Both the position numbers and the translations under genes were made by a program. The notes below the pieces were generated by a model. The model worked only from the letters and a program-made list of their open reading frames with translations, was not told where the DNA came from and ran no database searches. 64,000 nt of DNA from Lactobacillus sp. UCMA15818 (GTDB lineage: Bacteria > Bacillota > Bacilli > Lactobacillales > Lactobacillaceae): assembly GCF_030400225.1 (NCBI RefSeq), contig NZ_VJYB01000002.1, positions 314,207 to 378,206 on the forward strand, given 5' to 3'. Positions 9,992 through 58,276 of the stretch are shown in pieces (the first letter of the stretch is position 1; each line of letters begins with the position of its first letter).

Positions 9992-12900
9992 ATGGATTCA
10001 AAAAAGATACATTACAAGATGTATAAAGCCGGCAAAAACTGGCTATTTGCAAGTATCGTTGTAGTTAGTTTTGGTTTGGGCAGCAGTATGGCAGTAACGA
10101 AGGCAAATGCTGACAGCACTTCTTCGACAAGTACAGCCACCAGCGACAGTACCTCCGCCGTAAGTACAAGCGAGTCGTCTGCAAGTAGCGCCACAGCAAG
10201 TACAAGCAGTGAAGCAACAAAGGCAGCTGCAACATCTGAAGACACAAGTAGTACGACAGCAAGTACAAGCAGTGAAACAACAAAGGCAGCTGCAACATCT
10301 GAAGACACAAGCAGTACGGCAGCAAGTACAAGCAGTGAAACAACAAAGGCAGCTGCAACATCTGAAGACACAAGTAGCGCTGCAGCAAGTACAAGCAGTG
10401 AAACAACAAAGACAGCAGCAACATCTGAAGACACAAGTAGCACCGCAAGCACAAGCAGCACACAAGATTCAACTGCAGCAACTACAAACGGTGAAAGTTC
10501 AAGTAGCAGTGCGGCAGCAAGTACATCGTCTGAAAGTGCAGTAAATACAGCGACAACTGACAATAGTTCAACTAGTACGGATAATGAGTCAAATAGTGTA
10601 CAAGTTTCTTATACGACATTGCTTAGCCAGTTAAATGCTGATGCAACTTTGAGTAGTGCTAATAACAGCTTTGTAAATGTTACCGCAGCAAATTTTCTAG
10701 ATTATTTTACCCTTAACGGGTCAGCAACATATGATGAATCTACAGGTATTGTGACACTTACTACTAATGATAATAATTTAGTGGGGAATTTTTCACTTAA
10801 AAGCAAGATAGACATGAATACAAGCTTTACCCTTACTGGAAGTGTGAACCTTGGTTCTAATCCTAATGGAGCAGATGGAATTGGTTTCGCATTCCATAAT
10901 GGAAACACAAGTGATGTTGGGAATGCAGGGGGTAACCTCGGAATTGGTGGCTTGCAAAATGCAATTGGGTTCAAATTAGATACATGGAGTAATGGTTATC
11001 AAGCACCTGATGAGAATGTTTCGGGTGCACAAGTTCCATCCACTGATTCTAATGGCTTTGGCTGGAATGGTGATTCAATGAGTGCTCCTTATGGTACATT
11101 TGTTACTACAAGCGACAAACAGATTGAAACAAAAGATGGCACAGAAGTTCAAAGATGGTGGGCTGAAGATGTAGCTGGATCTGCGCAATCATTAAGTAAG
11201 ACTGATATTGATGGGCAATTCCATAACTTTGTTGTAAGCTATGATGGCAGTACACGACTTTTAACTATTAAATATACACAAACAGACGGGACAATTTTAA
11301 CATGGAGTACTACAGTGGATTCTTCATATCAGGCAATGGCTTTGATTATCAGTGCTTCAACTGGTGGAGCCAAGAACTTGCAGCAATTCAAGATTACCAG
11401 CTTTGATTTCCAAGAAGCCGCTACAGTTGATGTGAAGTATGTTGATCAACAGGGTAATGTGCTGACAACTGGTGAAGTGACTTATCCAAGTGGACCATAT
11501 GTGAATGGAACTTACACTACAGAGCAAAAAGAAATTCAGAATTATAAGTTCGTTGGGATGGGTAATAGTATGACTGCCAGTGGGAACTTGACTGAAAATG
11601 GCAGCAATGGAACTGTCATTTACGTCTACGCTCCTGACTATCAAGCAACTTCAAAAACAGTTAATGAGACAATTAACTATGTCGACCAAAACGGAAAGAC
11701 GGTAGCGGCTTCATCTACGTCGGCAGTAACCTTTGTCACGGTAACTAATCCAGTTGATGGCAGTATAACCTACTATTATAAGAGCGGAGCGGTTGCTACA
11801 CCGACAATTGGCAACGATGGAGTTCCAGAAGGTGATGGCTGGACGCAGACAGACAGTGCAAGCTTTGCAGAAGTTGCCAATCCAACGGTTGCTGGCTATA
11901 AGGTAATCAGCAACGATGCCCCAGCTAGTGATTTGACAAAAGTTGCAGCACAACAAGTAACAAATGACAGCACAGACCTGAACTATACAGTTGTTTACGC
12001 TCCTGACTACCAAGCAACATCAAAGACTATTAACGAAACTATTAACTATGTTGATCAGAATGGAAAGTCAGTTGCGGATTCATACAAAGCGACACCAGTG
12101 ACATTTGTCACGGTAACTAATCCAGCTGATGGCAGTGTGACCTACTATTATAAGAGTGGAGCAGTTGCCACTCCAACAATTAGCAACGATGGAGTTCCAG
12201 AAGGTGATGGCTGGACAAAGACAGATAGTGCAGACTTTACGGAAGTTGTCAATCCAACGATTGCTGGCTATAAGGTAATCAGCAACGATGCCCCAGCTAG
12301 TGATTTGACAAAAGTTGCAGCACAACAAGTAACAAATGACAGCACAGACTTGAACTATACAGTGGTCTATGCTGCAAATAAGGAAGCTGCTAAGGTCACA
12401 TATATTGACGATACAACTGGTAAGACCTTAAGTGCTAAAGATCTTTCTGGATCATTCGGCACAACAGATGACTATCGGACAGCAGATACGATTAAGGATT
12501 ATGAGAATCAAGGGTATGTTTTAGTCAGTGATGGTTATCCAACTAACGGGGTCGTTTATGACCAAGATGGTGTGGTTAAGAGTTATGAAGTTCATTTGAC
12601 ACATGGCACTACTGAGAATACTGAAAGTAGTAAAGTAAACGAAACAATTCATTATGTTTATAGCGATGGAAGTAAAGCAGCAGATGATTATAATGCAACT
12701 GCACTTGAGTTTACAAGAACAGTTACAACGGATAAAGTAACTGGTGAAAAGACTTACGGGGCTTGGACAGCTAAAGACGGTTCGAGTTTTACAGCGGTAA
12801 CGTCACCAACAATCGCCGGTTACACACCAGATCAAGCTGCAATTGCTCAAATTGATGGAATTACTGGAGATTCAAAGGATATTGAAAAAACAGTTGTTTA

Positions 12901-13222
12901 CACAAAAAATGCTGATCCAGTTGTGCCTACAACACCAGTGACTCCTGCAACACCGACAACACCAAGTAATAATGGTGGCAACAACAATACAAGTAATAAT
13001 ACTACGTTGACTAGTAGTGCATCAGCGACAACAACACCACTGAGCAATGTTACGACAAAGCAAACAGCATCTAAGACAACTACAGCTTCTGCGTCAAGTC
13101 TGCCACAGACTGGTGACGAACAAAGCAGCAAGGTATCTGTCATAGGGACAATTCTAATTGCTTTGGCAAGTATTGGTACATTATTCGGTTTGGGAAAACG
13201 GAATAGGAAAGAGTCAAAATAG
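9992..13222 (+). CDS. LPxTG-anchored adhesin with lectin and MucBP-type repeats
   Basis: 1076 residues. It begins with a KxYKxGKxW-type signal (K9, Y11, K12, G14, K15, W17), used by serine-rich and mucus-binding proteins; cleavage is probably near residue 40. Residues 41-205 are Ser/Thr/Ala-rich with four copies of a 21-residue repeat. About 223-467 is an L-type lectin-like domain (ADGIGFAFHNGN). MucBP-type repeats follow (VKYVDQQGNVL, INYVDQNGK and others), including two nearly identical 123-residue units. A Pro/Thr/Asn-rich wall spacer leads to LPQTG at 1037-1041, a hydrophobic helix and a Lys/Arg tail. Sortase anchoring and adhesion to mucin or glycans are expected. SD AGGAGGGG precedes ATG 9992. 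Confidence 0.93.
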   Translation: MDSKKIHYKMYKAGKNWLFASIVVVSFGLGSSMAVTKANADSTSSTSTATSDSTSAVSTSESSASSATASTSSEATKAAATSEDTSSTTASTSSETTKAAATSEDTSSTAASTSSETTKAAATSEDTSSAAASTSSETTKTAATSEDTSSTASTSSTQDSTAATTNGESSSSSAAASTSSESAVNTATTDNSSTSTDNESNSVQVSYTTLLSQLNADATLSSANNSFVNVTAANFLDYFTLNGSATYDESTGIVTLTTNDNNLVGNFSLKSKIDMNTSFTLTGSVNLGSNPNGADGIGFAFHNGNTSDVGNAGGNLGIGGLQNAIGFKLDTWSNGYQAPDENVSGAQVPSTDSNGFGWNGDSMSAPYGTFVTTSDKQIETKDGTEVQRWWAEDVAGSAQSLSKTDIDGQFHNFVVSYDGSTRLLTIKYTQTDGTILTWSTTVDSSYQAMALIISASTGGAKNLQQFKITSFDFQEAATVDVKYVDQQGNVLTTGEVTYPSGPYVNGTYTTEQKEIQNYKFVGMGNSMTASGNLTENGSNGTVIYVYAPDYQATSKTVNETINYVDQNGKTVAASSTSAVTFVTVTNPVDGSITYYYKSGAVATPTIGNDGVPEGDGWTQTDSASFAEVANPTVAGYKVISNDAPASDLTKVAAQQVTNDSTDLNYTVVYAPDYQATSKTINETINYVDQNGKSVADSYKATPVTFVTVTNPADGSVTYYYKSGAVATPTISNDGVPEGDGWTKTDSADFTEVVNPTIAGYKVISNDAPASDLTKVAAQQVTNDSTDLNYTVVYAANKEAAKVTYIDDTTGKTLSAKDLSGSFGTTDDYRTADTIKDYENQGYVLVSDGYPTNGVVYDQDGVVKSYEVHLTHGTTENTESSKVNETIHYVYSDGSKAADDYNATALEFTRTVTTDKVTGEKTYGAWTAKDGSSFTAVTSPTIAGYTPDQAAIAQIDGITGDSKDIEKTVVYTKNADPVVPTTPVTPATPTTPSNNGGNNNTSNNTTLTSSASATTTPLSNVTTKQTASKTTTASASSLPQTGDEQSSKVSVIGTILIALASIGTLFGLGKRNRKESK
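10196..10444 (+). repeat. Four tandem 63-bp repeats in the adhesin gene
   Basis: Each unit encodes a version of ASTSSETTKAAATSEDTSST; the fourth is one codon short. The near-identity at DNA level makes copy-number change by slippage likely. The region encodes the Ser/Thr-rich stalk. Confidence 0.9.
11639..12376 (+). repeat. Two tandem 369-bp MucBP-type repeats
   Basis: Units start at 11639 and 12008, both encoding YQATSKT(V/I)NETINYVDQNGK and a long shared stretch ending LNYTVVYA. The high nucleotide identity in the second half of each unit suggests recent duplication or gene conversion. Confidence 0.85.
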
Positions 13223-37339: not shown

Positions 37340-38105
37340 TAAGATTATTGACCTGCATTGTCATTTAATCCCTGGGATTGATGATGGCTCTCCTGATCTG
37401 GAACATTCACTAGAACTTGCGCATCAAGCCGTTGCTGAGGGAATAACACATATCTTGGCAACTCCGCATCATTTGGATGGTGATTATGTTAACCATCGAG
37501 ATGATGTAATTAAGCACGTTACTGATTTTCAGCGTGAACTAGATCATCACGGAATACCGCTTGTTATTTTTCCTGGACAGGAAGTTCATATTAATGGAGA
37601 CTTGACTGAAAAGTACGATGATTTACTGGGAATTGATGAAGATAAGAAGTACATGCTGATTGAATTTCCTCATGGCTCAGTTCCTGCATACGCTAAGCGT
37701 TTATTCTTTGAGTTGCGTAAGCTAGGAACAACTCCGGTGATCGTTCATCCAGAACGCAATCATGAGATTCAAGGAGATTTGAATCTTTTATATGATTTTA
37801 TTGCTGATGGGGCGTTATCACAACTGACGGCAACCAGTTATGTCGGTGGTTTTGGTGAGAAGGTTCAGCATATCTCTGAACAGCTCGTTGAACATAACCT
37901 TGTTCAGATTTTTGCATCTGATGCCCATGCACTGAAAGGTCGCAGCTTCGCATTACGAGAGGCATTTATGAAGTTGCGAACAGAGTTGGGACAGACCGAA
38001 GTTGATGAATTCGAAGGTAATGCGGAGAATTTACTTAATGGAATGCCAGTTTTTGCCAGAGATTATTCGCGGGTTGATAAGAAGAAAAAGTTTTGGCTTT
38101 TTTAG
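37293..38105 (+). CDS. wzb: Wzb/CpsB protein-tyrosine phosphatase (PHP type)
   Basis: 270 residues. PHP-fold metal motifs DLHCHLIPGIDDGS, ATPHHLDGDY, PGQEVHI, VIVHPERN and ASDAHALKGR. Removes phosphate from the Wze tyrosine tail. Start ATG 37293 is preceded by AGGTGGGAG at 9 nt; the open frame extends further upstream but without a ribosome site. Last gene of the EPS locus. Confidence 0.93.
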   Translation: MAIMETDTTASLTKSNKIIDLHCHLIPGIDDGSPDLEHSLELAHQAVAEGITHILATPHHLDGDYVNHRDDVIKHVTDFQRELDHHGIPLVIFPGQEVHINGDLTEKYDDLLGIDEDKKYMLIEFPHGSVPAYAKRLFFELRKLGTTPVIVHPERNHEIQGDLNLLYDFIADGALSQLTATSYVGGFGEKVQHISEQLVEHNLVQIFASDAHALKGRSFALREAFMKLRTELGQTEVDEFEGNAENLLNGMPVFARDYSRVDKKKKFWLF

Positions 38106-38712
38106 AAAAAGTATAGTATAAGTGGAGTAAGTATTTGTTTCTTAGATGAAATGGATGCTTATTTTTTCAATATAAATTTAATTGGCTAATCAATGTGAAT
38201 GCTCATATAAATTAAAAAAAGTTTGCTTTGTTGAAGATAATATATCACTAAATTTGCAAATTAAATATTTAGAAAAGATTTCTTTTGTTTAGTAGTTTTA
38301 GGTATTAAAATATGATAGTATTAGTGGCAGTAAGTTGCAAGTCATTATATTATTTATTATGAGCTGATTCTGATACTATCCAAAATCTTAATTAAATGAG
38401 GAAACATGCTTGTTCGTATTAATATAGAAAGGCTGTTTCAAGATTAATTTTTGAGATTCGGTATATTTTGAACCAGCCTTTTCCTACGTTTAGTCAAAGT
38501 TTACCTTTTCAATGTTGGTATTTTATTTTTAAATAAATTGCAAAAATGGTGCATTGGTTTCAAGAAAATGTTTTCGGAATAAAATTTATAATGGCTAGGC
38601 ATAAAAGGTAGAGAAGATAAAGTTTGAGTTTTTGTTGTGTAGTAGATAAGATGGAAGCTAACTTAATGGAGTGTTAGCTTTTTAACTGCATAATACTTTT
38701 AAGGATTTTTGG
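38106..38712. other. 600-bp non-coding region between EPS and c-di-GMP loci
   Basis: No supported gene. It holds a long imperfect hairpin AAGGCTGTTTCAA / TTGAACCAGCCTT at 38429-38480 followed by TT, a likely EPS terminator, and AGCTAAC / GTTAGCT with a T run at 38656-38683, which lies just before the first GGDEF gene and could be an attenuator-like leader structure. Confidence 0.5.
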
Positions 38713-39843
38713 GTGGTTGAATATAAAATGCTAGAGATATTTATTTTGGGCTTCATCGCTCCGCTAATTACAATCTGTTTTTTATTCTGCAAGTACTACT
38801 TCTTTAGAATATATGTTGTTTCCTTAGAGCATCAACTCTGGGCCGACATCATCTTCTATTTTTTCTTAGGTACTTTCTATTTTGTGGTGGAAAGCCTTAC
38901 TTTTTTCTATTTTGAAATTATATGTTTCCAATATGTGGTTGGAATTACCGCCTTTTTTCTTGATGGTAGAATTAGAGGATACCTTGCTTTTGCATTGATG
39001 CCGCCAGTCCTAATGCTTGTAGAACTAGTGAATGGAATATATTCTCCGGCGACGATTCAGTATGTCTTCGTACTGATGGTTGCTTCCATTATTTTTTGTG
39101 AACTGATTAACTTTTTGGTTGATATTGACCTATTTTCGAAATATGCTACTTCGTTGGTTATAGCCAATATTGTGTCACCAGTCTTGATAGGTGCACAGTG
39201 GCGAAGTACTATTGGAACAAGTACGTCAGATGTCTATGTACCAATTTTAATTGGATCTGTTATTATTTTGAGCTTTGTCTATGGTTATTCTGCAGCATTG
39301 CAGCGCAAAGAAGTCCAGATACTAGAGCTTAGGTATGAAGCCACATATGATGGATTGACTAATCTCTTAAATTATAATTCTTTTGCCGATTATGTGACTG
39401 GTAAGAAGGAAGAAAAACCACAGCATCATGTCGTAGTCATGTTGGATATTGATAATTTTAAACAAATTAATGATACTTTTGGGCATTTGGAAGGCAACAA
39501 TGTAATCAAGTTCTTCTCAACAAGTTTAAAAATCTTTTTCAATAGGAACTGCCCAAAGAATGTTGAAGTATATCGATTTGGCGGAGAAGAGTTCTGTATC
39601 TTATTCCAAGACCGAAATATTGAAGATTGCTTTTCATTGATGTTGCGGTTCCAAGAAGAACTTAGTGCAAAAAACTTTTTGACAGACGATAAACAAGCAG
39701 TTGCGGTGACATTCTCTGGCGGTGTTGCTGAAGCAAATGAATTTAATGAAATTGATCAGGCGGTAAAAGAGGCAGATATGGCCTTGTACTTGGCAAAAAG
39801 AGCGGGACGAGCGCAAGTTATCTGTCCTGCTTGCCAGATCTAA
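38713..39843 (+). CDS. Membrane diguanylate cyclase 1 (GGDEF)
   Basis: 376 residues. About six N-terminal TM helices (5TM-like sensor region, residues 1-195), a short coiled linker ELRYEATYDGLTNLLNY, then a GGDEF domain with MLDIDNFKQINDTFGH and active site RFGGEEF. No RxxD inhibitory site five residues before the motif, so product feedback is probably absent. GTG 38713 or ATG 38728 start. It makes c-di-GMP; the 778-residue exported protein and a second cyclase follow. Confidence 0.9.
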   Translation: MVEYKMLEIFILGFIAPLITICFLFCKYYFFRIYVVSLEHQLWADIIFYFFLGTFYFVVESLTFFYFEIICFQYVVGITAFFLDGRIRGYLAFALMPPVLMLVELVNGIYSPATIQYVFVLMVASIIFCELINFLVDIDLFSKYATSLVIANIVSPVLIGAQWRSTIGTSTSDVYVPILIGSVIILSFVYGYSAALQRKEVQILELRYEATYDGLTNLLNYNSFADYVTGKKEEKPQHHVVVMLDIDNFKQINDTFGHLEGNNVIKFFSTSLKIFFNRNCPKNVEVYRFGGEEFCILFQDRNIEDCFSLMLRFQEELSAKNFLTDDKQAVAVTFSGGVAEANEFNEIDQAVKEADMALYLAKRAGRAQVICPACQI

Positions 39844-39934
39844 TAATAGTTTTGTTTAAATTAACCTTGTGTTATGAGTACTATTCCAATTATAATGAAA
39901 AAGAATTAAAGGTTTAATAAAAGGGGATTAACGA

Positions 39935-42271
39935 GTGAAAAGATGGGGTTTGGGGATAGTAGTTATCTTATTTGGTTCGCTTTTTGCGCTCTTGCTGGCT
40001 AACCAAAAGCCAAATCAGATAACGAACGCTAATAAACAGGCTAACAATTCAACAATTCTGGCTAAAAAGGGTTTGGAAAAGCAAGGAACCTCTTTTGCTT
40101 TACAGAACAGTAATAAGTTAGCAAAACTGCAAGAAGAAAAAACACCGACGGCTGCTATAAGTAGTACTGCACTGTCGAGTCCGGCTAAATTGGCGAGTAG
40201 TGTAGATGATAACAGTGCTCGCATAACAATCGCTGGTGTTTTATCACAGAAAAGTGGGGCAGCTTTGAGCGACCAAGTTGTATATGCTAAAAGCTCGACT
40301 GAAGAGATTAGGCTTTCTACGGATGGAGAAGGCGATTTTTTTGTGCATTTATTAAGTAACCAAAACTATACTTTGACCACTTCGAATGGGATGCAGCTCG
40401 GCAGCATTACAACTGGTGCTACTAAGAGTGTTGTCAATGATGATGGCGTAATTGAACTCGGAAGAACATTCAAAAGTGAATCTTCTTCCGGTTATGTGCA
40501 GCTTAATTCAAATGTTATTTATTTTCCAGAATCTGAGATATCTTCGGCAAGTAGCACTAGCATTATTGTCAACGGAATACAGAATGTATACGTTGGTGAT
40601 ATTGTACTTGCAGATGAGAGCCTGAATCATTTGACAGCAGTGGCTATTGAGGTAACCAGTGTTCAATATGAGAATAACAAAACAATTTTAAATGGTACAC
40701 CGCTAGCCATGACTTCAATCTTTCAAGAAATTCATTCAGGAAGTTATGGGAGTTTTGGTACAGTGAAAGTCACGCCCAACACACAAGTTGCAAGTCGCAA
40801 CAATAATGATGGCAATGACAATCAGAATGAGAACAGTCTAGTAGTCAATGATGGACAAGGCAGCACATTCAATGTGGAAGTAGGGCTGACACCATCCCTG
40901 AAGATTGATTATTCAAACACAAGTGGGACAAAGCAGATTGCAGCATCGTTTAAGACGACTGCCAAAGTTCAAGGGAGTATTAGCGCAGGTCGAACAAATT
41001 CCCAAAATTATGATATCGGCACTGCAACGATCACAACTGATCTTCCTTTTTTATCCGTTACGGTACCGTTAACCCTAAATGAGTCTTTGCAATCCGTTAA
41101 GGAACACAGTGTAAATGTCACAGGTGAGTATACTTCAAGCGTAAATTTGCAAATCAACGGTGACAAACTGACGAAAACAGCTAGTCATACTGCCGCTGTT
41201 AATTTGTCTGGTGGCACAGATTCGTTGAGCCTAAGCTTGGGTGTCACAGCTGCCCCAAGTATTTCAATGGCAGGAAGCGAACTGCTCAACATAAATGCTT
41301 GCTCAGGCTTTAGTGAGAATGTAGATGCTGCTGCGAACGAGACTCAAAGTAGTCATTATAGTGATGAGATTGAGAGCCCATTTTTGGAAAGGTCATATAG
41401 TTCAGCAGATGATATTCCCATTTTTAAAACGGCTGATATGCAGATAAATACTGCTACAGCAGACAATGTAAGCGACATAACTTTGGCTCCGGGAGAAAAA
41501 AAGATACTGTATTTGCCAGATTATAGTAGTGGTAACACTGACTTAACTCTTAACGAGAATGGTCCAATCACGGTTACAAAATTAGCAAGCGGTGTATATG
41601 AAGTGGTCGCGAATGCGGCGGCTGTGCCTGAAACGAGTGCCAATCTTGCATTTTTGGATGCTTCTTCAAATGGACATCTTGTTAATAGTAAGGGGCAACT
41701 TACCGTAAACATTGTCAACGCAGACAAGACTAGTATCAGTGGTCGTATACTAGATGCTTCGAAGCAAACGGGAATCCAGAATGCACAAATAACCTTGATC
41801 AATGAAGCGACTGGTGCTACTTATAGGACAGTCTCCAACGCTAACGGCGAATATGTGCTAGAACTGCCAAGTGGTAATTATCAGAGTACGGTTACAGCAA
41901 GCGGGTACCAATCTGCGAATGCAGTACTCGGTAATATTGATACAGAAGGGTTGAAGCATGACACTGAATTGTCTTTGAATGTTTCTAATCTTCATGGAGT
42001 TATTAAGGATTCAGTGACAAGCGCGAAGATTGCTGGAGCGTCGCTATCTTTTAGGGCGGGTGCTGATAATACGATAAGTGAACCTGTAGCAAGCAGCGTT
42101 ACTGATGAGAATGGCGAATACCATCTTAGTCTGCCTGCAGGTGATTACACAGTTGCGCTAATGAGCAATGGTTTTGTTACGGGCTATGAAAATATTACTG
42201 TGGGTCAAAATAGTGAAGATACTGAGGTAGATGGTCTGCTGGCTAAGGAAAGTACAGACTTTAGCAGGTAA
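39935..42271 (+). CDS. Large exported protein with carboxypeptidase-regulatory-like domains
   Basis: 778 residues. N-terminal signal/TM (about 5-22), no LPxTG, so secreted or held by the N-terminal helix. Ser/Asn/Thr-rich. Three Ig-like beta sandwich units of the CarboxypepD_reg type: about 95-170, 601-670 (ISGRILDASKQTGIQNAQIT, SNANGEYVLELPSG) and 671-745 (LHGVIKDSVT, TDENGEYHLSLPAGDYT). The middle is an unassigned beta-rich region. GTG start with AGGGGATT. Lying between two cyclase genes, it may be an extracellular matrix or adhesin protein controlled by c-di-GMP. Family not recognised. Confidence 0.75.
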   Translation: MKRWGLGIVVILFGSLFALLLANQKPNQITNANKQANNSTILAKKGLEKQGTSFALQNSNKLAKLQEEKTPTAAISSTALSSPAKLASSVDDNSARITIAGVLSQKSGAALSDQVVYAKSSTEEIRLSTDGEGDFFVHLLSNQNYTLTTSNGMQLGSITTGATKSVVNDDGVIELGRTFKSESSSGYVQLNSNVIYFPESEISSASSTSIIVNGIQNVYVGDIVLADESLNHLTAVAIEVTSVQYENNKTILNGTPLAMTSIFQEIHSGSYGSFGTVKVTPNTQVASRNNNDGNDNQNENSLVVNDGQGSTFNVEVGLTPSLKIDYSNTSGTKQIAASFKTTAKVQGSISAGRTNSQNYDIGTATITTDLPFLSVTVPLTLNESLQSVKEHSVNVTGEYTSSVNLQINGDKLTKTASHTAAVNLSGGTDSLSLSLGVTAAPSISMAGSELLNINACSGFSENVDAAANETQSSHYSDEIESPFLERSYSSADDIPIFKTADMQINTATADNVSDITLAPGEKKILYLPDYSSGNTDLTLNENGPITVTKLASGVYEVVANAAAVPETSANLAFLDASSNGHLVNSKGQLTVNIVNADKTSISGRILDASKQTGIQNAQITLINEATGATYRTVSNANGEYVLELPSGNYQSTVTASGYQSANAVLGNIDTEGLKHDTELSLNVSNLHGVIKDSVTSAKIAGASLSFRAGADNTISEPVASSVTDENGEYHLSLPAGDYTVALMSNGFVTGYENITVGQNSEDTEVDGLLAKESTDFSR

Positions 42272-42346
42272 GCTTGTAGTAATCTGGTTTTTGAATTCTG
42301 ACTTAGTTGAAGTTAGTTTATACTTTTAAGACATTAAATTAAGGTT

Positions 42347-43504
42347 GTGATAATTTATATGCTCAGTGTATTGTTTGTTATGGTATTGATTCCTACATCG
42401 ATTGTTGGCTTTATATATGAGTTGTGCGTGTTAAGTGAAAGCGAAGAGATGCAGAAAGTACATTCACTTTTCAAATATGCTGCATTGCTTTTTTTGTTCG
42501 TTGTACAGGAATATTTTATTGCATATATAACATACAATACCGTTGGCTTTATCTGTTTTCAGTATACAATCAGCATTGCTACCTTTATGATTTCTCGTAA
42601 ATTTGCATTGATCACAGGTTTGTTCACGCCGATTGTGATCAACTTATTTTTGTACAATATTGGTGAATTTACGCCTTTATTTTGTGTACTGAGCTGTGTG
42701 GCTGTGTTGTTTGTCTTTCAGGCAATGAATGCTTTCTTAGATAAGTCGTTCACTGTTCAGCTTTACCGGTACAGCGGGACCTTGATTTTAATTAGTTTAT
42801 TGACGATGAACCCTGCTACGGGGACTTTTACTATTCATTTTTACACTGTGGCGAAGTTTTTGAAGGTGTTTTTAGGATGTCTGCTTATTATTTGGTTTTC
42901 ATATATTTTCTTTAGAGAAATCGAGCAGAAGAAAAATCGGATAAGTGAGCTGGAGTACATGAAAGCTCACGATAAATTGACAGGTCTTTATAATTATCGG
43001 GAATTCAGAAATAATTTGAATACTATAGATGAATCTTCTGATAAGAATTATCTTGCTGCAATGCTGGATCTTGATAATTTTAAGAAGTTCAATGATGAAT
43101 TCGGACATGACGAGGGAAATAGGTTTCTTGAGAGTTTTGCGAAAAAGCTGGTGAATTATATGCGAAGAAATAATGATACTAATGTAACTGTTTATCGCTT
43201 CGGCGGTGAAGAATTTTGTATTCTGATTAAGAACACACCTGTTGAAATGGCTCATATAAAGTTAAACGACTTCATTATTTTCTTACAGGCAGATAAGTAT
43301 AAAACCAATTCAGGAAAAGAAATGCGTGTTTCTTGTTCTGCGGGTATTTCAGATGCACGTAAATTTGACTCAATCTATGCCGCTGTGAGAGCTGCTGATG
43401 ATGCACTTTACCAAGCTAAGAGAGAAGGAAAAGGACGTGTTGTTACTAATAATATAGGGGACAGCCTTAGTTTACGAAGCATGGTTTCTGATTCTGCGCA
43501 ATAG
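42347..43504 (+). CDS. Membrane diguanylate cyclase 2 (GGDEF)
   Basis: 385 residues. Six TM helices (about 1-190), linker ELEYMKAHDKLTGLYNYREF, GGDEF domain with MLDLDNFKKFNDEFGHDEGN and active RFGGEEFCILI. A paralogue of the cyclase at 38713-39843 with the same architecture. Start GTG 42347 or, with slightly long spacing, ATG 42359. No RxxD inhibitory site seen. Probably senses a different membrane signal. Confidence 0.9.
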   Translation: MIIYMLSVLFVMVLIPTSIVGFIYELCVLSESEEMQKVHSLFKYAALLFLFVVQEYFIAYITYNTVGFICFQYTISIATFMISRKFALITGLFTPIVINLFLYNIGEFTPLFCVLSCVAVLFVFQAMNAFLDKSFTVQLYRYSGTLILISLLTMNPATGTFTIHFYTVAKFLKVFLGCLLIIWFSYIFFREIEQKKNRISELEYMKAHDKLTGLYNYREFRNNLNTIDESSDKNYLAAMLDLDNFKKFNDEFGHDEGNRFLESFAKKLVNYMRRNNDTNVTVYRFGGEEFCILIKNTPVEMAHIKLNDFIIFLQADKYKTNSGKEMRVSCSAGISDARKFDSIYAAVRAADDALYQAKREGKGRVVTNNIGDSLSLRSMVSDSAQ

Positions 43505-43575
43505 TACATCTTCTGAGATTCAGGCCATAAGTGGTAAAGATTCATAATTGTAAGAGAGAAAGGTGTAAAGTAATT

Positions 43576-44349
43576 ATGTTTTGGATTATTATATTTCTAG
43601 TAATTGCCGGTTTTCTTGCCGGTTTACTGCAGTCTGTGGCAGGATTAGCATCATTAGTATCTTATCCAGCGCTGTTAATAGTAGGCGTTCCTCCGGTAAT
43701 TGCCAATGTTACTAATACAACCGCATTGATTTTTTCGGGAATTGGTTCACTAATCTCTTCATCCAAGGAATTGAAGGGACACTGGAAGAAATTATCATTC
43801 TTTATTGTTTTGTCGCTGATTGGAAGTGTGGGTGGAAGCTACTTACTGTTGCATTTGCCATCTGCATCGTTTGAGAAAGTTGTGCCATTTTTTATTTTTG
43901 GTGCGGGAGTTCTTTTGTTGCTGTCTAGTCGTAAGAAGAAAGCGATTGATGGTAGTAGTCTGGCTGGAAGTAAGAACTTACAAGGTACATGGAAGCTGAT
44001 TATTAGTGCAATTTGTATAGTTCTAGTTGGGGGATACACTGGTTATTTTGGAGCAGCCGGCGGTGTGTTATTCCTTGCAATTCTCTCGGCAATTACAGAT
44101 GAAGAATTTCATATTGTAAATGCAATGAAGAACGTAATAACTTTTGTCGGGAATTTAACTGCAACATGCATCTTTATCTTTAAGTCACATATTGCATGGC
44201 ACTATGTGATTCCAATGGGTATAGGATTGCTTGCTGGTGGTTATGTAGGACCGATTATTGTGAGGCATGTCAATATTCATTTGTTGCGGATTCTAATTGC
44301 TTTTGCCGCCTTTGGACTTGCTGCTTATTTGTTGCTTGCTGCGTATTAG
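43576..44349 (+). CDS. TauE/SafE-family sulfite/anion exporter
   Basis: 257 residues, about 8 TM helices. AGFLAGLLQSVAGLASLVSY and the repeated half VGGYTGYFGAAGGVLFLA are the two TauE/SafE motifs; KNVITFVGNLTA and GGYVGPIIVRH follow. Start ATG 43576 with GAAAGGTG upstream; the 15 codons before it lack a ribosome site. Substrate unknown (sulfite, sulfonates or other small anions in relatives). Confidence 0.88.
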   Translation: MFWIIIFLVIAGFLAGLLQSVAGLASLVSYPALLIVGVPPVIANVTNTTALIFSGIGSLISSSKELKGHWKKLSFFIVLSLIGSVGGSYLLLHLPSASFEKVVPFFIFGAGVLLLLSSRKKKAIDGSSLAGSKNLQGTWKLIISAICIVLVGGYTGYFGAAGGVLFLAILSAITDEEFHIVNAMKNVITFVGNLTATCIFIFKSHIAWHYVIPMGIGLLAGGYVGPIIVRHVNIHLLRILIAFAAFGLAAYLLLAAY

Positions 44350-44400
44350 GTTAAGTGAGAGTGCCAACAGGTGAATTGGAGCATTAATTATGAGTAACAC

Positions 44401-44584
44401 ATGATTGAAAAAAGAAGGTATTCAATTATTATTGAGAAATATCGTTCACTAGGTCTGAAAGAGGTATGACCCGTATTTGATTTCAGATATCAACGGAAAT
44501 GTTTCATCAATTGAATTTCAAAGTGCAAAAATTATTAATGAATTGAACAAAATAGAATGGTCTGAATTTAGTGTAGCATTCTAA
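44401..44584 (+). pseudogene. Frameshifted small hypothetical gene
   Basis: ATG 44401 reads MIEKRRYSIIIEKYRSLGLK and stops; in another frame YLISDINGNVSSIEFQSAKI continues to ...WSEFSVAF and stop 44582. The two pieces together would make a protein of about 64 residues. Unknown family. The rest of 44350-44680 holds only the terminator below. Confidence 0.35.
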
Positions 44585-44598
44585 ATTTAATTAAAACA

Positions 44599-44645
44599 AA
44601 ACATCACAGTAAGAAGACTTTTCATTTTCTTACTGTGATGTTTTA
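44599..44645. terminator. Bidirectional terminator
   Basis: AAAACATCACAGTAAGAA / TTCTTACTGTGATGTTTT perfect stem with A and T runs on both sides; it ends the minus-strand DUF2922 gene and any plus-strand transcript. Confidence 0.9.
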
Positions 44646-44680
44646 TTTTGTAATATTCCTATATGTCAGGTTTTACCTAA

Positions 44681-44902
44681 TTATTCGAAAATCGGTGTAT
44701 TCGTTGTTTCTACATATTTTGCAGAGATTGGTGTCGTATAGAGTTGTTCACCAGTCTTATTGATAAAAATCCCAAGTTCAGCTAAATCTGTCATTGCTTT
44801 TTGAATGACTTCTTTGTTCAGATCGCTATTTGCATAACTAAGACGGAAGTGATTCTTTGTTTTACCAGATTGACTGCCAAAAACCATGTCTAATTGTTTC
44901 AT
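44681..44902 (-). CDS. DUF2922-type small protein
   Basis: 73 residues. KQLDMVFGSQSGKTKNHFRL and the later VIQKAMTDLAELGIF match the DUF2922 family of small Firmicute proteins of unknown function, usually encoded beside a DUF1659 protein, as here. AGGAGGAATTC precedes the ATG at 44902. Confidence 0.82.
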   Translation of the reverse strand: MKQLDMVFGSQSGKTKNHFRLSYANSDLNKEVIQKAMTDLAELGIFINKTGEQLYTTPISAKYVETTNTPIFE

Positions 44903-44939
44903 TTGAATTCCTCCTAATTTTTATTTAGTACCTTTGAAG

Positions 44940-45140
44940 TTATTTTGCAACTTTTTCAATGGTGGTAAGCTTTGTTTCTGAGATCTCATCAGCCAGCAAA
45001 GTATTTAAGATTGCGGTGAAAGCAATAATGTTCGCTTCTGTTAAACCGTCTTTAAGATTATTAAAAGAATGCTTAATTTCTGAGCCATCTGCACTGACAC
45101 CTGTTGTTGCGATACTTGATTTAACCCATGCTTTACTCAT
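44940..45140 (-). CDS. DUF1659-type small protein
   Basis: 66 residues: MSKAWVKSSIATTGVSADGS, SFNNLKDGLTEANIIAF and ISETKLTTIEKV are typical of DUF1659. ATG at 45140, 8 nt from GGAGG; a GTG at 45149 is less likely. Forms an operon with the DUF2922 gene 37 nt downstream. Role unknown. Confidence 0.82.
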   Translation of the reverse strand: MSKAWVKSSIATTGVSADGSEIKHSFNNLKDGLTEANIIAFTAILNTLLADEISETKLTTIEKVAK

Positions 45141-45235
45141 GTAAAACACCTCCAGTTTTATTTTGTAAGTGCTGCAGCTGCTTACACTTATACAAACGAA
45201 AGCAAAACTAAAAATGTTAACCTGATTTTATTTTT

Positions 45236-45372
45236 TTGAGAATCCGAACTTAGAGTGTGTTTTGCTATGAATAATCCACAGTTACCTAGAGAATTCTGAC
45301 CCATGGAGTATGTTTATTCGGAATTAATAATGAGACTGAATTTAAAATCCGATTTATGACTCAGTTCGTTAG
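45236..45372. repeat. Dispersed intergenic repeat, copy 1
   Basis: TTTGCTATGAATAATCCACA..., GAATTCTGACCCATGGAGTA..., and GAGACTGAATTTAAAATCCG match in order the copy at 47205-47350 and in part the hairpin at 62133-62178. Its left arm is degenerate. The rest of 45150-45631 shows no gene. Confidence 0.6.
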
Positions 45373-45631
45373 AAGAGCATTCTAGATTGTTGAAAAAATA
45401 GAGATTAAAGTAGTTTAAAAAAATAAAATTAGTTTTCTTGAAACTAAACAATATTGCGCTTACATTAAGAAAATACATAAAAATAGTACAGTTAACTTTT
45501 GAAAGCAAGAAAAAAAGTTCAAATCAGCAGAATCATGTTACAAAAGCGGACATGAAATATAGCGATAAAATTGACATTCTAAGAATATGATTATAAAATC
45601 ATTAATACATCAAATGAAAGGTGATGTTTGT

Positions 45632-47041
45632 ATGAGTAGTGTTTTTAGAAAGAAAAGTGTAGCAGAGCTTACAAGTGGGGTAACTCCTCTTAGACGTACA
45701 CTGCGCACTGTGGATCTGACATTTCTAGGAATTGGCGCTATTATTGGTACAGGGATTTTTGTTTTAACAGGTAAGGGTGCTTTAACAGCTGGTCCTGCAT
45801 TGTCTTTATCATTTTTAATTGCCGCTATCTGTTGTGGATTTGCTGGTCTGTGCTATGCAGAATTTGCATCAATTGCTCCCGTTGCTGGTTCGGCTTATAC
45901 ATATTCCTATGTAGCATTTGGTGAAATTGTTGCTTTTATCATTGGTTGGGATTTGATTTTGGAATATGCATTAGGTGCCGCGACGGTTTCAGTTGGGTGG
46001 TCTGGGTATTTTGTTAACCTCTTGGACAATATGGGGATTCACATACCGACCGTTCTTACTGCAGCCGCTGGGACAACACCTGGTGTCAATACATTATTCA
46101 ATTTGCCAGCATTCCTAATCGTTATCTTAATTACTTGGATTATCTCGATTGGGATTAATTCAACCAAGCGTGTTAATGATACAATGGTTATTCTGAAGCT
46201 TGCTGTTATTGTATTGTTTATTGTATGTACCGTTTGGTATATCAAGCCACATAATTGGGTACCATTCTCACCTTATGGCTGGTTCTCAACACATGCTGGC
46301 GCGAAAGCCGGGATTATTCCGGCAGCATCAATTGTGTTCTTCGCCTTTATTGGTTTTGATTCTGTTGCTTCAAGTGCTGAAGAAACAATCAATCCAAGCA
46401 AGACGTTGCCACGTGGTATTTTGATTTCACTTTTGATTTCTACGGTACTCTATATTATCATGACGTTAATCATGACAGGTGTTGTTAAATACACTGTATT
46501 CAGTAAATATCTGAATGCTCCCATCTTGGCGGTACTTGCTTCAACGGGTCAGACATGGTTATCAATTATTGTAAGTATCGGTGCAATTCTAGGTATGACA
46601 ACTGTTATTTTAGTTCAACTTTATGGTCAATCAAGAATTACTTATTCAATGTCGCGTGATGGATTATTTCCTAAGTTTTTCGGTGAAGTTAATGAGAAGT
46701 ATAAGACACCATTCAAGGGAACTTGGTTCTTCGGCATTATTACAGCCATTGCAGGTGGATTAATCAACCTGAATATTTTATCAGAACTTGTAAATATTGG
46801 TACCTTGACAGCCTTTATTTTAGTTTCTGCAGGTGTTCTCTGGATGCGTAAGTCACAACCAGATCTTCATCGTGGGTTCCGTGCACCAGGTGTTCCTGTA
46901 ACTCCAATTATTGCTATTATTTTCTGTTTAGTTTTGGTTGCCGGACTAAACTGGGAAACTTGGTTAAGGTTCCTTGTCTGGTTTGCAATTGGGATGGTTC
47001 TTTACTTCACATACGGTCGCAAACATTCATTAATGAATTAA
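45632..47041 (+). CDS. APC-family amino acid permease
   Basis: 469 residues, 12 TM helices. [20 protein letters not shown] is the APC helix-1 signature, [20 protein letters not shown] and [20 protein letters not shown] mark the YfnA/CAT (cationic amino acid) subgroup. Start ATG 45632 with AAAGGTGAT upstream; the 15 codons before it form a frame without ribosome site. Imports an amino acid by proton symport; substrate not certain. Confidence 0.9.
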
Positions 47042-57514: not shown

Positions 57515-58276
57515 ATGACAGAAGATGGTGTTTGTATAGTAGACGAATTGCAACAATTTTATTTAGTTTGTCAACCTATTATAAGGATTAGATCAAGCCA
57601 GTTGATTGAATCGGTTGCTGACTATGAAGTTTTGATTCGTTCTAAAAGAGATAACAAGTTTCCTTTTAATGCTTTTAGGAAGTTGATTGAATGTGAAGCT
57701 TACAATGATGTTTTTATCGAGTGGTTCGAAAAAGAATTTAATTATTTGCTACAGAAGTTTCCAAATTATAAATTTGACATTAATATTGATCCACAACAGT
57801 TTAAATATCCAAGAACATGGATTTTTATAGATAGTATTTTACCTGAGTGTCGTAGAATTGCTGTCGAAATTACTGAGGCGATTCCGCTTAATAAAGAATT
57901 TGCAGCACAGGACAAATTTTTCAAAAAATCGCCACTATCTGTGTTAAAAAAAATGGGCTTTAAGACCGTAGTAGATGATATAGGTACTGGACAAAATTCA
58001 CTGCAATTTGTAGCTAATAACTTGCAAGATATCGATAGACTGAAGATATCCTTGGTTGCCTTCAGGGGCCTGAGAGATGACGTCACTTATCTTTTTTTAA
58101 AAGCATGGTTTCATTTAGCAAACAAATATAACTTTGAATTTGTGGTTGAGGGAATTGATAATGAGATTACTGCGACTTCACTGATTTCTAGCGGTCTTGA
58201 CATGCAGCAAGGCTTTTTCTGGCAAAAGCCGCATGTATTAAAAGAGACTGCTAAAAGGCTAAATAATATCTACTAA
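57515..58276 (+). CDS. EAL-domain protein (c-di-GMP phosphodiesterase-like)
   Basis: 253 residues, a stand-alone EAL domain without TM helices. Key positions: EVL in YEVLIRS, Asn in INIDPQQF, VEITE, DD in VVDDIGTGQ, Lys in DRLKIS, Glu in VEGIDNE and QQGFF. The metal-pair DD and most ligands are kept, but KxD is KIS and DDFG is DDIG, so activity may be weak or the protein may be a c-di-GMP receptor. AAAGGAAT precedes ATG 57515. It complements the two GGDEF proteins 14-19 kb away. Confidence 0.85.
   Translation: MTEDGVCIVDELQQFYLVCQPIIRIRSSQLIESVADYEVLIRSKRDNKFPFNAFRKLIECEAYNDVFIEWFEKEFNYLLQKFPNYKFDINIDPQQFKYPRTWIFIDSILPECRRIAVEITEAIPLNKEFAAQDKFFKKSPLSVLKKMGFKTVVDDIGTGQNSLQFVANNLQDIDRLKISLVAFRGLRDDVTYLFLKAWFHLANKYNFEFVVEGIDNEITATSLISSGLDMQQGFFWQKPHVLKETAKRLNNIY

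Follow-up and report, generated by a model that had tools for sequence, protein, structure and literature searches.

Within the analysed window, a stretch of 64,000 nucleotides from the genome of Lactobacillus sp. UCMA15818 (contig NZ_VJYB01000002.1, positions 314,207 to 378,206), two genes for membrane-bound GGDEF proteins, i.e., putative cyclases producing cyclic di-GMP (c-di-GMP), enclose a gene for an exported protein. We designate the three genes DGC1, EXP and DGC2 and refer to them together as the trio, which is followed by a permease gene in the same run (window positions):

38713 to 39843, plus strand: DGC1, 376 amino acids, GTG start, membrane GGDEF protein with the motif RFGGEEF and without an RxxD I-site
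39935 to 42271, plus strand: EXP, 778 amino acids, exported, probably membrane-anchored at the N-terminus, beta-rich
42347 to 43504, plus strand: DGC2, 385 amino acids, GTG start, membrane GGDEF protein with the motif RFGGEEF and without an RxxD I-site
43531 to 44349, plus strand: gene for a permease of the TauE/SafE family, last gene of the same-strand run

The gaps amount to 91 bp between DGC1 and EXP, 75 bp between EXP and DGC2, and 26 bp between DGC2 and the TauE gene, all on one strand, and a terminator scan revealed no terminator between the trio genes or in front of the TauE gene. The open reading frames, Pfam scores and motifs thus bear out the initial annotation, which had described two membrane GGDEF proteins with RFGGEEF flanking an exported protein of 778 amino acids.

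The GGDEF domains of DGC1 and DGC2 reached Pfam scores of 104.9 and 108.6 bits, respectively, against a cut-off of 23.8, and both proteins have kept the RFGGEEF motif and the upstream D-x-D-N-F-K-x-x-N-D region. DGC1 is predicted to be an active cyclase, and both proteins would synthesize c-di-GMP from GTP. At the place of the I-site, five residues before the GGDEF motif, they carry PKNV and DTNV instead of RxxD, a site which is common in GGDEF cyclases and not obligatory. Their membrane halves contain multiple helices, as judged by hydropathy, and no Pfam sensor domain. No other protein of the 2.58 Mb window genome matches Pfam GGDEF. The genome also contains two EAL matches, one of them located downstream of the trio:

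57515 to 58276, plus strand: stand-alone EAL protein, 253 amino acids, predicted c-di-GMP phosphodiesterase

This protein scored 92.4 bits against a Pfam cut-off of 31.3, and all of the motifs ExLxR, N, EITE, DDIGTG, K, EGI and Q, which we take to be the catalytic residues, were found in its sequence. The other EAL gene (contig C14, locus L072, 7763-10150) is a neighbour of two genes coding for a WxL-interacting protein and a surface protein of the WxL type.

The exported protein was divided into the following parts:

40220 to 40414, plus strand: CarboxypepD-like unit 1 of EXP, about residues 96-160, limits read from the alignment
40460 to 41728, plus strand: middle region of EXP, residues 176-598, no known family
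41732 to 41929, plus strand: CarboxypepD-like unit 2 of EXP, about residues 600-665
41990 to 42205, plus strand: CarboxypepD/SpaA-like unit 3 of EXP, about residues 686-757, limits approximate

Three CarboxypepD-like units and a middle region outside the known families had already been proposed for EXP, and both held up in the Pfam and PDB searches. The CarboxypepD_reg model matched in three stretches with 103.3 bits against a cut-off of 32.3, while the middle region of the window protein matched no Pfam family at E ≤ 1, those of its relatives gave only weak matches with E values of at least 0.07, and a comparison with the PDB sequences returned a single match at E 0.11 and nothing convincing. 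Hydropathy analysis, the only method applied here, identified one hydrophobic stretch at the N-terminus and no second one, and the protein is predicted to consist of an N-terminal helix followed by mostly beta structure. There is no LPXTG sortase signal visible in its tail and no Gram_pos_anchor match, and neither EXP nor its orthologue in genome G190 matched the Firmicu-CTERM signal model TIGR04145, which describes substrates of exosortase G (XrtG). Apart from one sub-threshold match to an ECF subunit, the matching models were confined to beta domains (CarboxypepD, SpaA, PEGA and others), and no glycosidase was among them. An AlphaFold2 model of the whole protein, based on three alignment rows, was unusable with a mean pLDDT (predicted local distance difference test) of 34.9, and a model of a beta part of 171 residues reached a mean of 60.0 and showed residues 311-445, approximately, as long beta strands. 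When this part was compared with PDB and BFVD by Foldseek, no structure matched at E ≤ 0.001, and among the 50 matches listed for each database the TM-scores did not exceed about 0.4. Weak PDB matches to pore proteins were taken as chance similarities to be expected for a long-stranded sheet.

Relatives of EXP turned out to be scarce. A single-sequence search of wider genome contigs revealed none, and an alignment query found only two records from L. mali. In PLSDB, three records matched, all of them on the C-terminal CarboxypepD-type part and none covering 80%, and no phage sequences matched the middle region. A profile of the middle region, searched against 345 genomes drawn from the whole order, retrieved only the window itself and one partial match over 66 positions; the other three EXP-containing genomes described below were not among the matches, so the family-wide result was not repeated in that draw. 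Finally, a part of 130 positions, comprising unit 1 and the region following it (profile positions 122-251), is common to EXP and a LysM protein of 1267 amino acids.

To follow the trio through the family, we used a sample of 397 Lactobacillaceae genomes, 14 of which belong to the genus of the window genome (G000). The middle region of EXP was present in four of them including G000, all from this one genus, and in each of the four (G000, G066, G190 and G256) the immediate neighbours of EXP are DGC1 on one side and DGC2 on the other. The co-conservation expected from the initial annotation was therefore observed, and the opposite case, an EXP protein occurring mostly without the cyclases, was not, as every EXP genome contained both. 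An EAL gene follows about 11-14 kb downstream of DGC2 in all four genomes, with the gene order checked in G190, and none of the four contains a Pfam GGDEF match outside the trio locus. The EXP proteins of the relatives are 53-63% identical to the window copy. Comparing the trio genes of three genomes, we obtained 0.13-0.35 nonsynonymous substitutions per site (dN) and more than one synonymous substitution per site (dS), which is near saturation. EXP, with dN values of 0.25-0.35 and dS values of 1.0-1.3, evolves faster than DGC1, DGC2, the TauE gene and the next permease gene in these genomes.

An unrooted tree built from 14 cyclases places the four DGC1 proteins with the cyclases of G225 and G271, which are linked to Pss-like or XrtG genes (see below), and DGC2 with a cyclase of G030, each with a support of 100. 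Because DGC1 and DGC2 fall on separate, well-supported branches, the bracket around EXP unites two old lineages, and a recent tandem duplication is ruled out. A DGC2-type gene is also present at the matching locus of G030 and G169, near the same amino-acid permease gene and without DGC1 or EXP, and the copy of G169 is interrupted. Stop codons or frame breaks were recorded in GGDEF genes of G256 (L040, 13152-14240), G169 (L101, 7774-8985) and G241 (L098, 8256-9361), which suggests that cyclases were lost repeatedly within the genus, unless the assemblies are in error.

Three of the four genomes contain additional genes next to the trio. In G066, G190 and G256, a complete XrtG system is located directly upstream of DGC1, between CpsB and DGC1, consisting of a Firmicu-CTERM protein, XrtG itself, two glycosyltransferases (TIGR03111 and TIGR03766) and a 6-pyruvoyl protein (TIGR03112). 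When the NCBIfam models were run on the proteins of G190, the members of this system scored far above the cut-offs. No protein of the window genome exceeded the cut-off of the XrtG model TIGR03110, which identified XrtG in eight of the 14 genus genomes and in 85 of the 397 family genomes. Where the relatives hold the XrtG system, the window contains only a spacer:

38106 to 38712, strand not assigned: spacer between CpsB and DGC1, 607 bp

Its left part (38159-38317, about 160 bp, 70% identical) matches the gap between CpsB and the CTERM gene in G190, i.e., the leader before the CTERM gene, and positions 38586-38632 as well as those from 38691 onward match the gap between the TIGR03766 gene and DGC1 and the start of DGC1. 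Nothing was found by searching the spacer for XrtG genes by tblastn. A loss of XrtG in the window lineage is plausible from these remains, and a gain by G066, G190 and G256 is equally possible; the polarity is not settled because a tree of the flanking genes puts the window genome outside the other three (support 75).

We then compared the occurrence of GGDEF proteins and XrtG over the family. GGDEF matches were present in 202 of the 397 genomes, in 190 of them over the curated Pfam cut-off and in 12 under it, which contradicts the earlier statement that c-di-GMP sets are uncommon in lactobacilli. Ignoring phylogeny, GGDEF proteins occurred in 82 of the 85 genomes with XrtG and in 119 of the 312 without it; these counts use 201 of the 202 GGDEF genomes, and each may be off by one. 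An earlier sample of 20 XrtG loci had contained two GGDEF-positive ones, both chosen for their known adjacency, and hence all 85 genomes were examined, yielding 88 XrtG loci, several of which end at contig ends. The custom GGDEF profile used here recovered 30 of 30 known GGDEF loci in a control. Within 10 kb of XrtG, a GGDEF gene was found in 15 of the 85 genomes (from seven genera), an EAL gene in 12, either of them in 19, and a BcsB gene in two. Random placement would give 2.28 genomes with a nearby GGDEF gene, with a maximum of 10 in 20,000 simulations; this expectation is perhaps somewhat low, since at most nine GGDEF genes per genome were used and some genomes hold more candidates. Among XrtG genomes with a single GGDEF gene, the gene lay within 10 kb of XrtG in seven of 20 (0.19 expected). 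Like the co-occurrence counts, these co-location statistics disregard phylogeny.

Several of the neighbouring genes are tightly packed, as far as mechanically assigned start codons tell. The genes of G356 follow one another as EAL, cyclase, CTERM and XrtG, with 8 bp shared between the frames of the cyclase and the CTERM protein. In G296, 4 bp are common to the CTERM frame and a GGDEF frame, whose gene is apparently split in two frames; an overlap of 4 bp is also seen at the other end of the XrtG set, between an EAL frame and the 6-pyruvoyl frame. The genomes of relatives suggest that such cyclases help to control a cell-surface sugar or protein-sorting system. In G295 (L162, 13028-14878), a frame of 616 amino acids with both GGDEF and EAL profile matches lies directly 3' of the XrtG-associated TIGR03766 gene, and in G110 (L112, 10304-19567) a Pss/Bcs-like operon with a BcsB match stands directly beside the XrtG system. 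None of the five NCBIfam models of the XrtG system (TIGR03110, TIGR03111, TIGR03112, TIGR03766 and TIGR04145) represents a c-di-GMP protein. A literature search, judged on titles and the beginnings of abstracts and leaving most subscription papers uncovered, found no paper joining XrtG with c-di-GMP. Transcripts of the XrtG system are over-expressed in some strains of Lactiplantibacillus plantarum, as reported in a paper that does not mention c-di-GMP in its accessible part (PMC12854382).

We recognized a single candidate c-di-GMP effector in the window genome, and it lies not in the Wzy-type exopolysaccharide (EPS) locus adjacent to the trio but in a Pss-like operon, which is located on the same contig at a distance of about 280 kb (G000, contig C12, about 64.5-72.9 kb). 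This operon-like run contains a GT2 synthase and a BcsB-like subunit scoring 112.8 bits against a cut-off of 21, and its last protein consists of membrane helices followed by a degenerate GGDEF-like region without a Pfam GGDEF match. Five residues before the lost GGDEF position, this protein carries the sequence REND, both in G000 and in G225. In G225, a DGC1-type gene is located directly upstream of the Pss-like run. The flanking genes of this locus (L094/L095) are the same as in G271 (L077), as judged by the listed sequence ends, but a cyclase, an EAL gene and an XrtG set are found there, as if the output had been swapped between a Pss-like operon and an XrtG set beside the cyclase and EAL genes. 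Within the 14 genus genomes, BcsB matches were confined to G000 and G225, neither of which has XrtG.

Related arrangements have been described in two other bacteria. The dgcA-dgcB-lmo1913-pdeC operon of Listeria monocytogenes (Chen et al. 2014) resembles the trio in combining two membrane cyclases near a non-signalling gene with a stand-alone EAL gene. The Listeria cyclase genes are adjacent (20 bp apart), whereas EXP separates those of the trio, and lmo1913 codes for a predicted six-hairpin glycosidase, whereas EXP is a beta-rich, exported protein without a glycosidase match (PMC4125290). The Pss-like run, with its GT2 and BcsB-like genes, likewise resembles the pssA-E operon of Listeria, on which those cyclases act. 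The Listeria operon codes for a BcsB-containing EPS synthase, in which the last subunit serves as receptor through the I-site of a degenerate GGDEF domain. This subunit, PssE, carries RxxD five residues before the lost motif, binds c-di-GMP with a Kd of 0.79 μM, and is required for the synthesis of Pss EPS (PMC4125290). A further difference from the Listeria module is the XrtG system, all five components of which directly precede the trio in G066, G190 and G256, whereas the window genome has no XrtG match. In Lactobacillus acidophilus, the dgcA-pdeA and gtsA-gtsB-pdeB genes likewise link c-di-GMP genes with an EPS glycosyltransferase, and overexpression of DgcA leads to more EPS and co-aggregation (He et al. 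2018, PMC6123363). That system differs from the trio in having one cyclase and a degenerate EAL receptor rather than an I-site protein; the accessible part of the paper describes no exported partner and does not mention an exosortase (PMC6123363).

Some further features were recorded around the trio and elsewhere in the window:

38654 to 38681, plus strand: hairpin with a T run, z -2.89, attenuator- or terminator-like, ending about 31 nucleotides 5' of the DGC1 start
44598 to 44644, plus strand: terminator-like hairpin of the intrinsic type, strong, z -8.24, 3' of the run ending with the TauE gene

Another hairpin is present in the spacer at 38427-38482 (z -3.4). The TauE gene has a later ATG at 43576 with a better ribosome-binding site than the start at 43531. 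No c-di-GMP riboswitch was found among the Rfam matches in 37900-45700, which were limited to three weak matches to microRNA families on the terminator. At 9992-13222, the window codes for an adhesin of 1076 amino acids with a KxYKxGKxW signal, a legume-type lectin domain, MucBP-type repeats and an LPXTG anchor.

Based on gene content, motifs, conservation, synteny and co-location statistics, from which we infer the enzymatic activities, what EXP does and how the signal reaches Pss or XrtG, we give about an even chance to the trio being a c-di-GMP control module attached to a surface-polysaccharide or surface-protein output, with EXP as its outward accessory. DGC1 and DGC2, two membrane cyclases of anciently different origin, would produce c-di-GMP in response to envelope signals, and the EAL protein at 57515-58276 would degrade it. 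In the close relatives, the module would be coupled to the XrtG system directly upstream, and in the window organism c-di-GMP would most likely act on the Pss-like exopolysaccharide synthase elsewhere on the contig, via the I-site of the degenerate GGDEF protein forming its last subunit, as in Listeria. EXP would be exported and held by its N-terminal helix with the beta domains outside, and may serve as a matrix- or wall-binding accessory or as a sensory partner of the cyclases. We propose more tentatively, and with somewhat less than even confidence, that the XrtG systems of lactobacilli are controlled by c-di-GMP, affecting the assembly or display of a glycosylated surface component processed by XrtG; the trio would then be the control half, which in a lineage devoid of XrtG still acts on a polysaccharide of the Pss type, and EXP a new outward component.

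A number of observations weigh against the trio being such a control module. Adjacency of XrtG and GGDEF genes was rejected as a general rule, as 70 of the 85 XrtG genomes have no GGDEF gene in the stretch examined. In the window genome, the trio and the Pss-like operon are unlinked, and BcsB matches are lacking in the remaining three EXP genomes. The PssE-like assignment of the last protein of this operon depends on its motif together with a profile alignment that is itself weak (probability 6.7%, E 0.0054). A mutual exclusion of XrtG and Pss is true for the 14 genus genomes and fails family-wide, where 29 genomes have both XrtG and BcsB (17.6 expected). The DGC2 gene of G256 contains a stop codon within the GGEEF motif, with the other three copies open, and DGC2 may be dispensable in this strain unless the stop is an assembly error. 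The DgcA protein of L. acidophilus, produced without its membrane part, showed no cyclase activity in vitro, as reported by He et al. (PMC6123363). Finally, the LysM surface protein sharing a module with EXP (L130, 7067-10870) is from G657, which belongs to a different family of the same order and contains no GGDEF match. The presence of this module in a GGDEF-less genome argues for a wall- or matrix-facing role of EXP over one specific to c-di-GMP.

EXP could alternatively act as the signal-input partner, its beta domains binding a wall or carbohydrate ligand and touching the membrane halves of DGC1 and DGC2 to set their activity, with the output being whatever c-di-GMP controls. This would agree with its position between both cyclases in all four genomes and its absence from the other 393 of the 397, with an N-terminal anchor lacking a visible LPXTG or CTERM sorting signal, and with multi-helix membrane halves of the cyclases lacking a Pfam sensor domain. 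However, the whole-protein model is unusable at the mean pLDDT given above, and both DGC1-type (G225, G271) and DGC2-type cyclases (G030, G169) occur without EXP; we consider this option unlikely. We likewise doubt that EXP represents a common type of surface adhesin or matrix protein inserted by chance at the DGC2 locus between cyclases serving other targets. Such an insertion would fit with the DGC2-type genes of G030 and G169, which occupy the matching locus in the absence of both DGC1 and EXP, with the EXP module in the LysM protein of a GGDEF-less genome, and with the restriction of EXP to four genomes of one genus. Against it, the trio has stayed together in genomes with EXP copies that differ by 37-47% from that of the window, and its genes share one strand, being separated from each other and from the TauE gene by 91, 75 and 26 bp, with the scan detecting no terminator in between.

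It appears very improbable to us that the trio is a remnant, its XrtG output having been lost by deletion in the lineage of the window while both cyclases and EXP were left over without a present target. In favour of a remnant, the window genome has no XrtG match, and its spacer matches the XrtG leader and the right-hand gap of the relatives, between which no sequence from the XrtG genes could be detected. Against this stand three open reading frames with dN well below dS, a Pss-like operon available as a target, and a tree of the flanking genes in which G000 falls outside the group formed by G066, G190 and G256 (support 75), with which a gain of XrtG by these three is equally compatible.

We therefore return to the trio as a c-di-GMP control module for a surface output, a reading which agrees in part with the signalling-to-surface unit initially suggested for the locus. 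The co-conservation of the trio speaks for that suggestion, which is strengthened by the full XrtG system beside the trio of the relatives, while its argument from rarity did not stand. The early interpretation is thus partly supported, being right in outline, wrong on rarity, and incomplete since the XrtG neighbour is absent from the window.

There is little functional work behind c-di-GMP in lactobacilli, and the literature we found, as far as titles and the beginnings of abstracts tell, names no trigger for the Gram-positive exosortase XrtG. The cyclases and EAL enzymes in or beside XrtG loci of seven genera lead to the testable prediction that c-di-GMP may have a role in XrtG action and its timing, which would have a bearing on how food and probiotic strains aggregate and on their surface properties.

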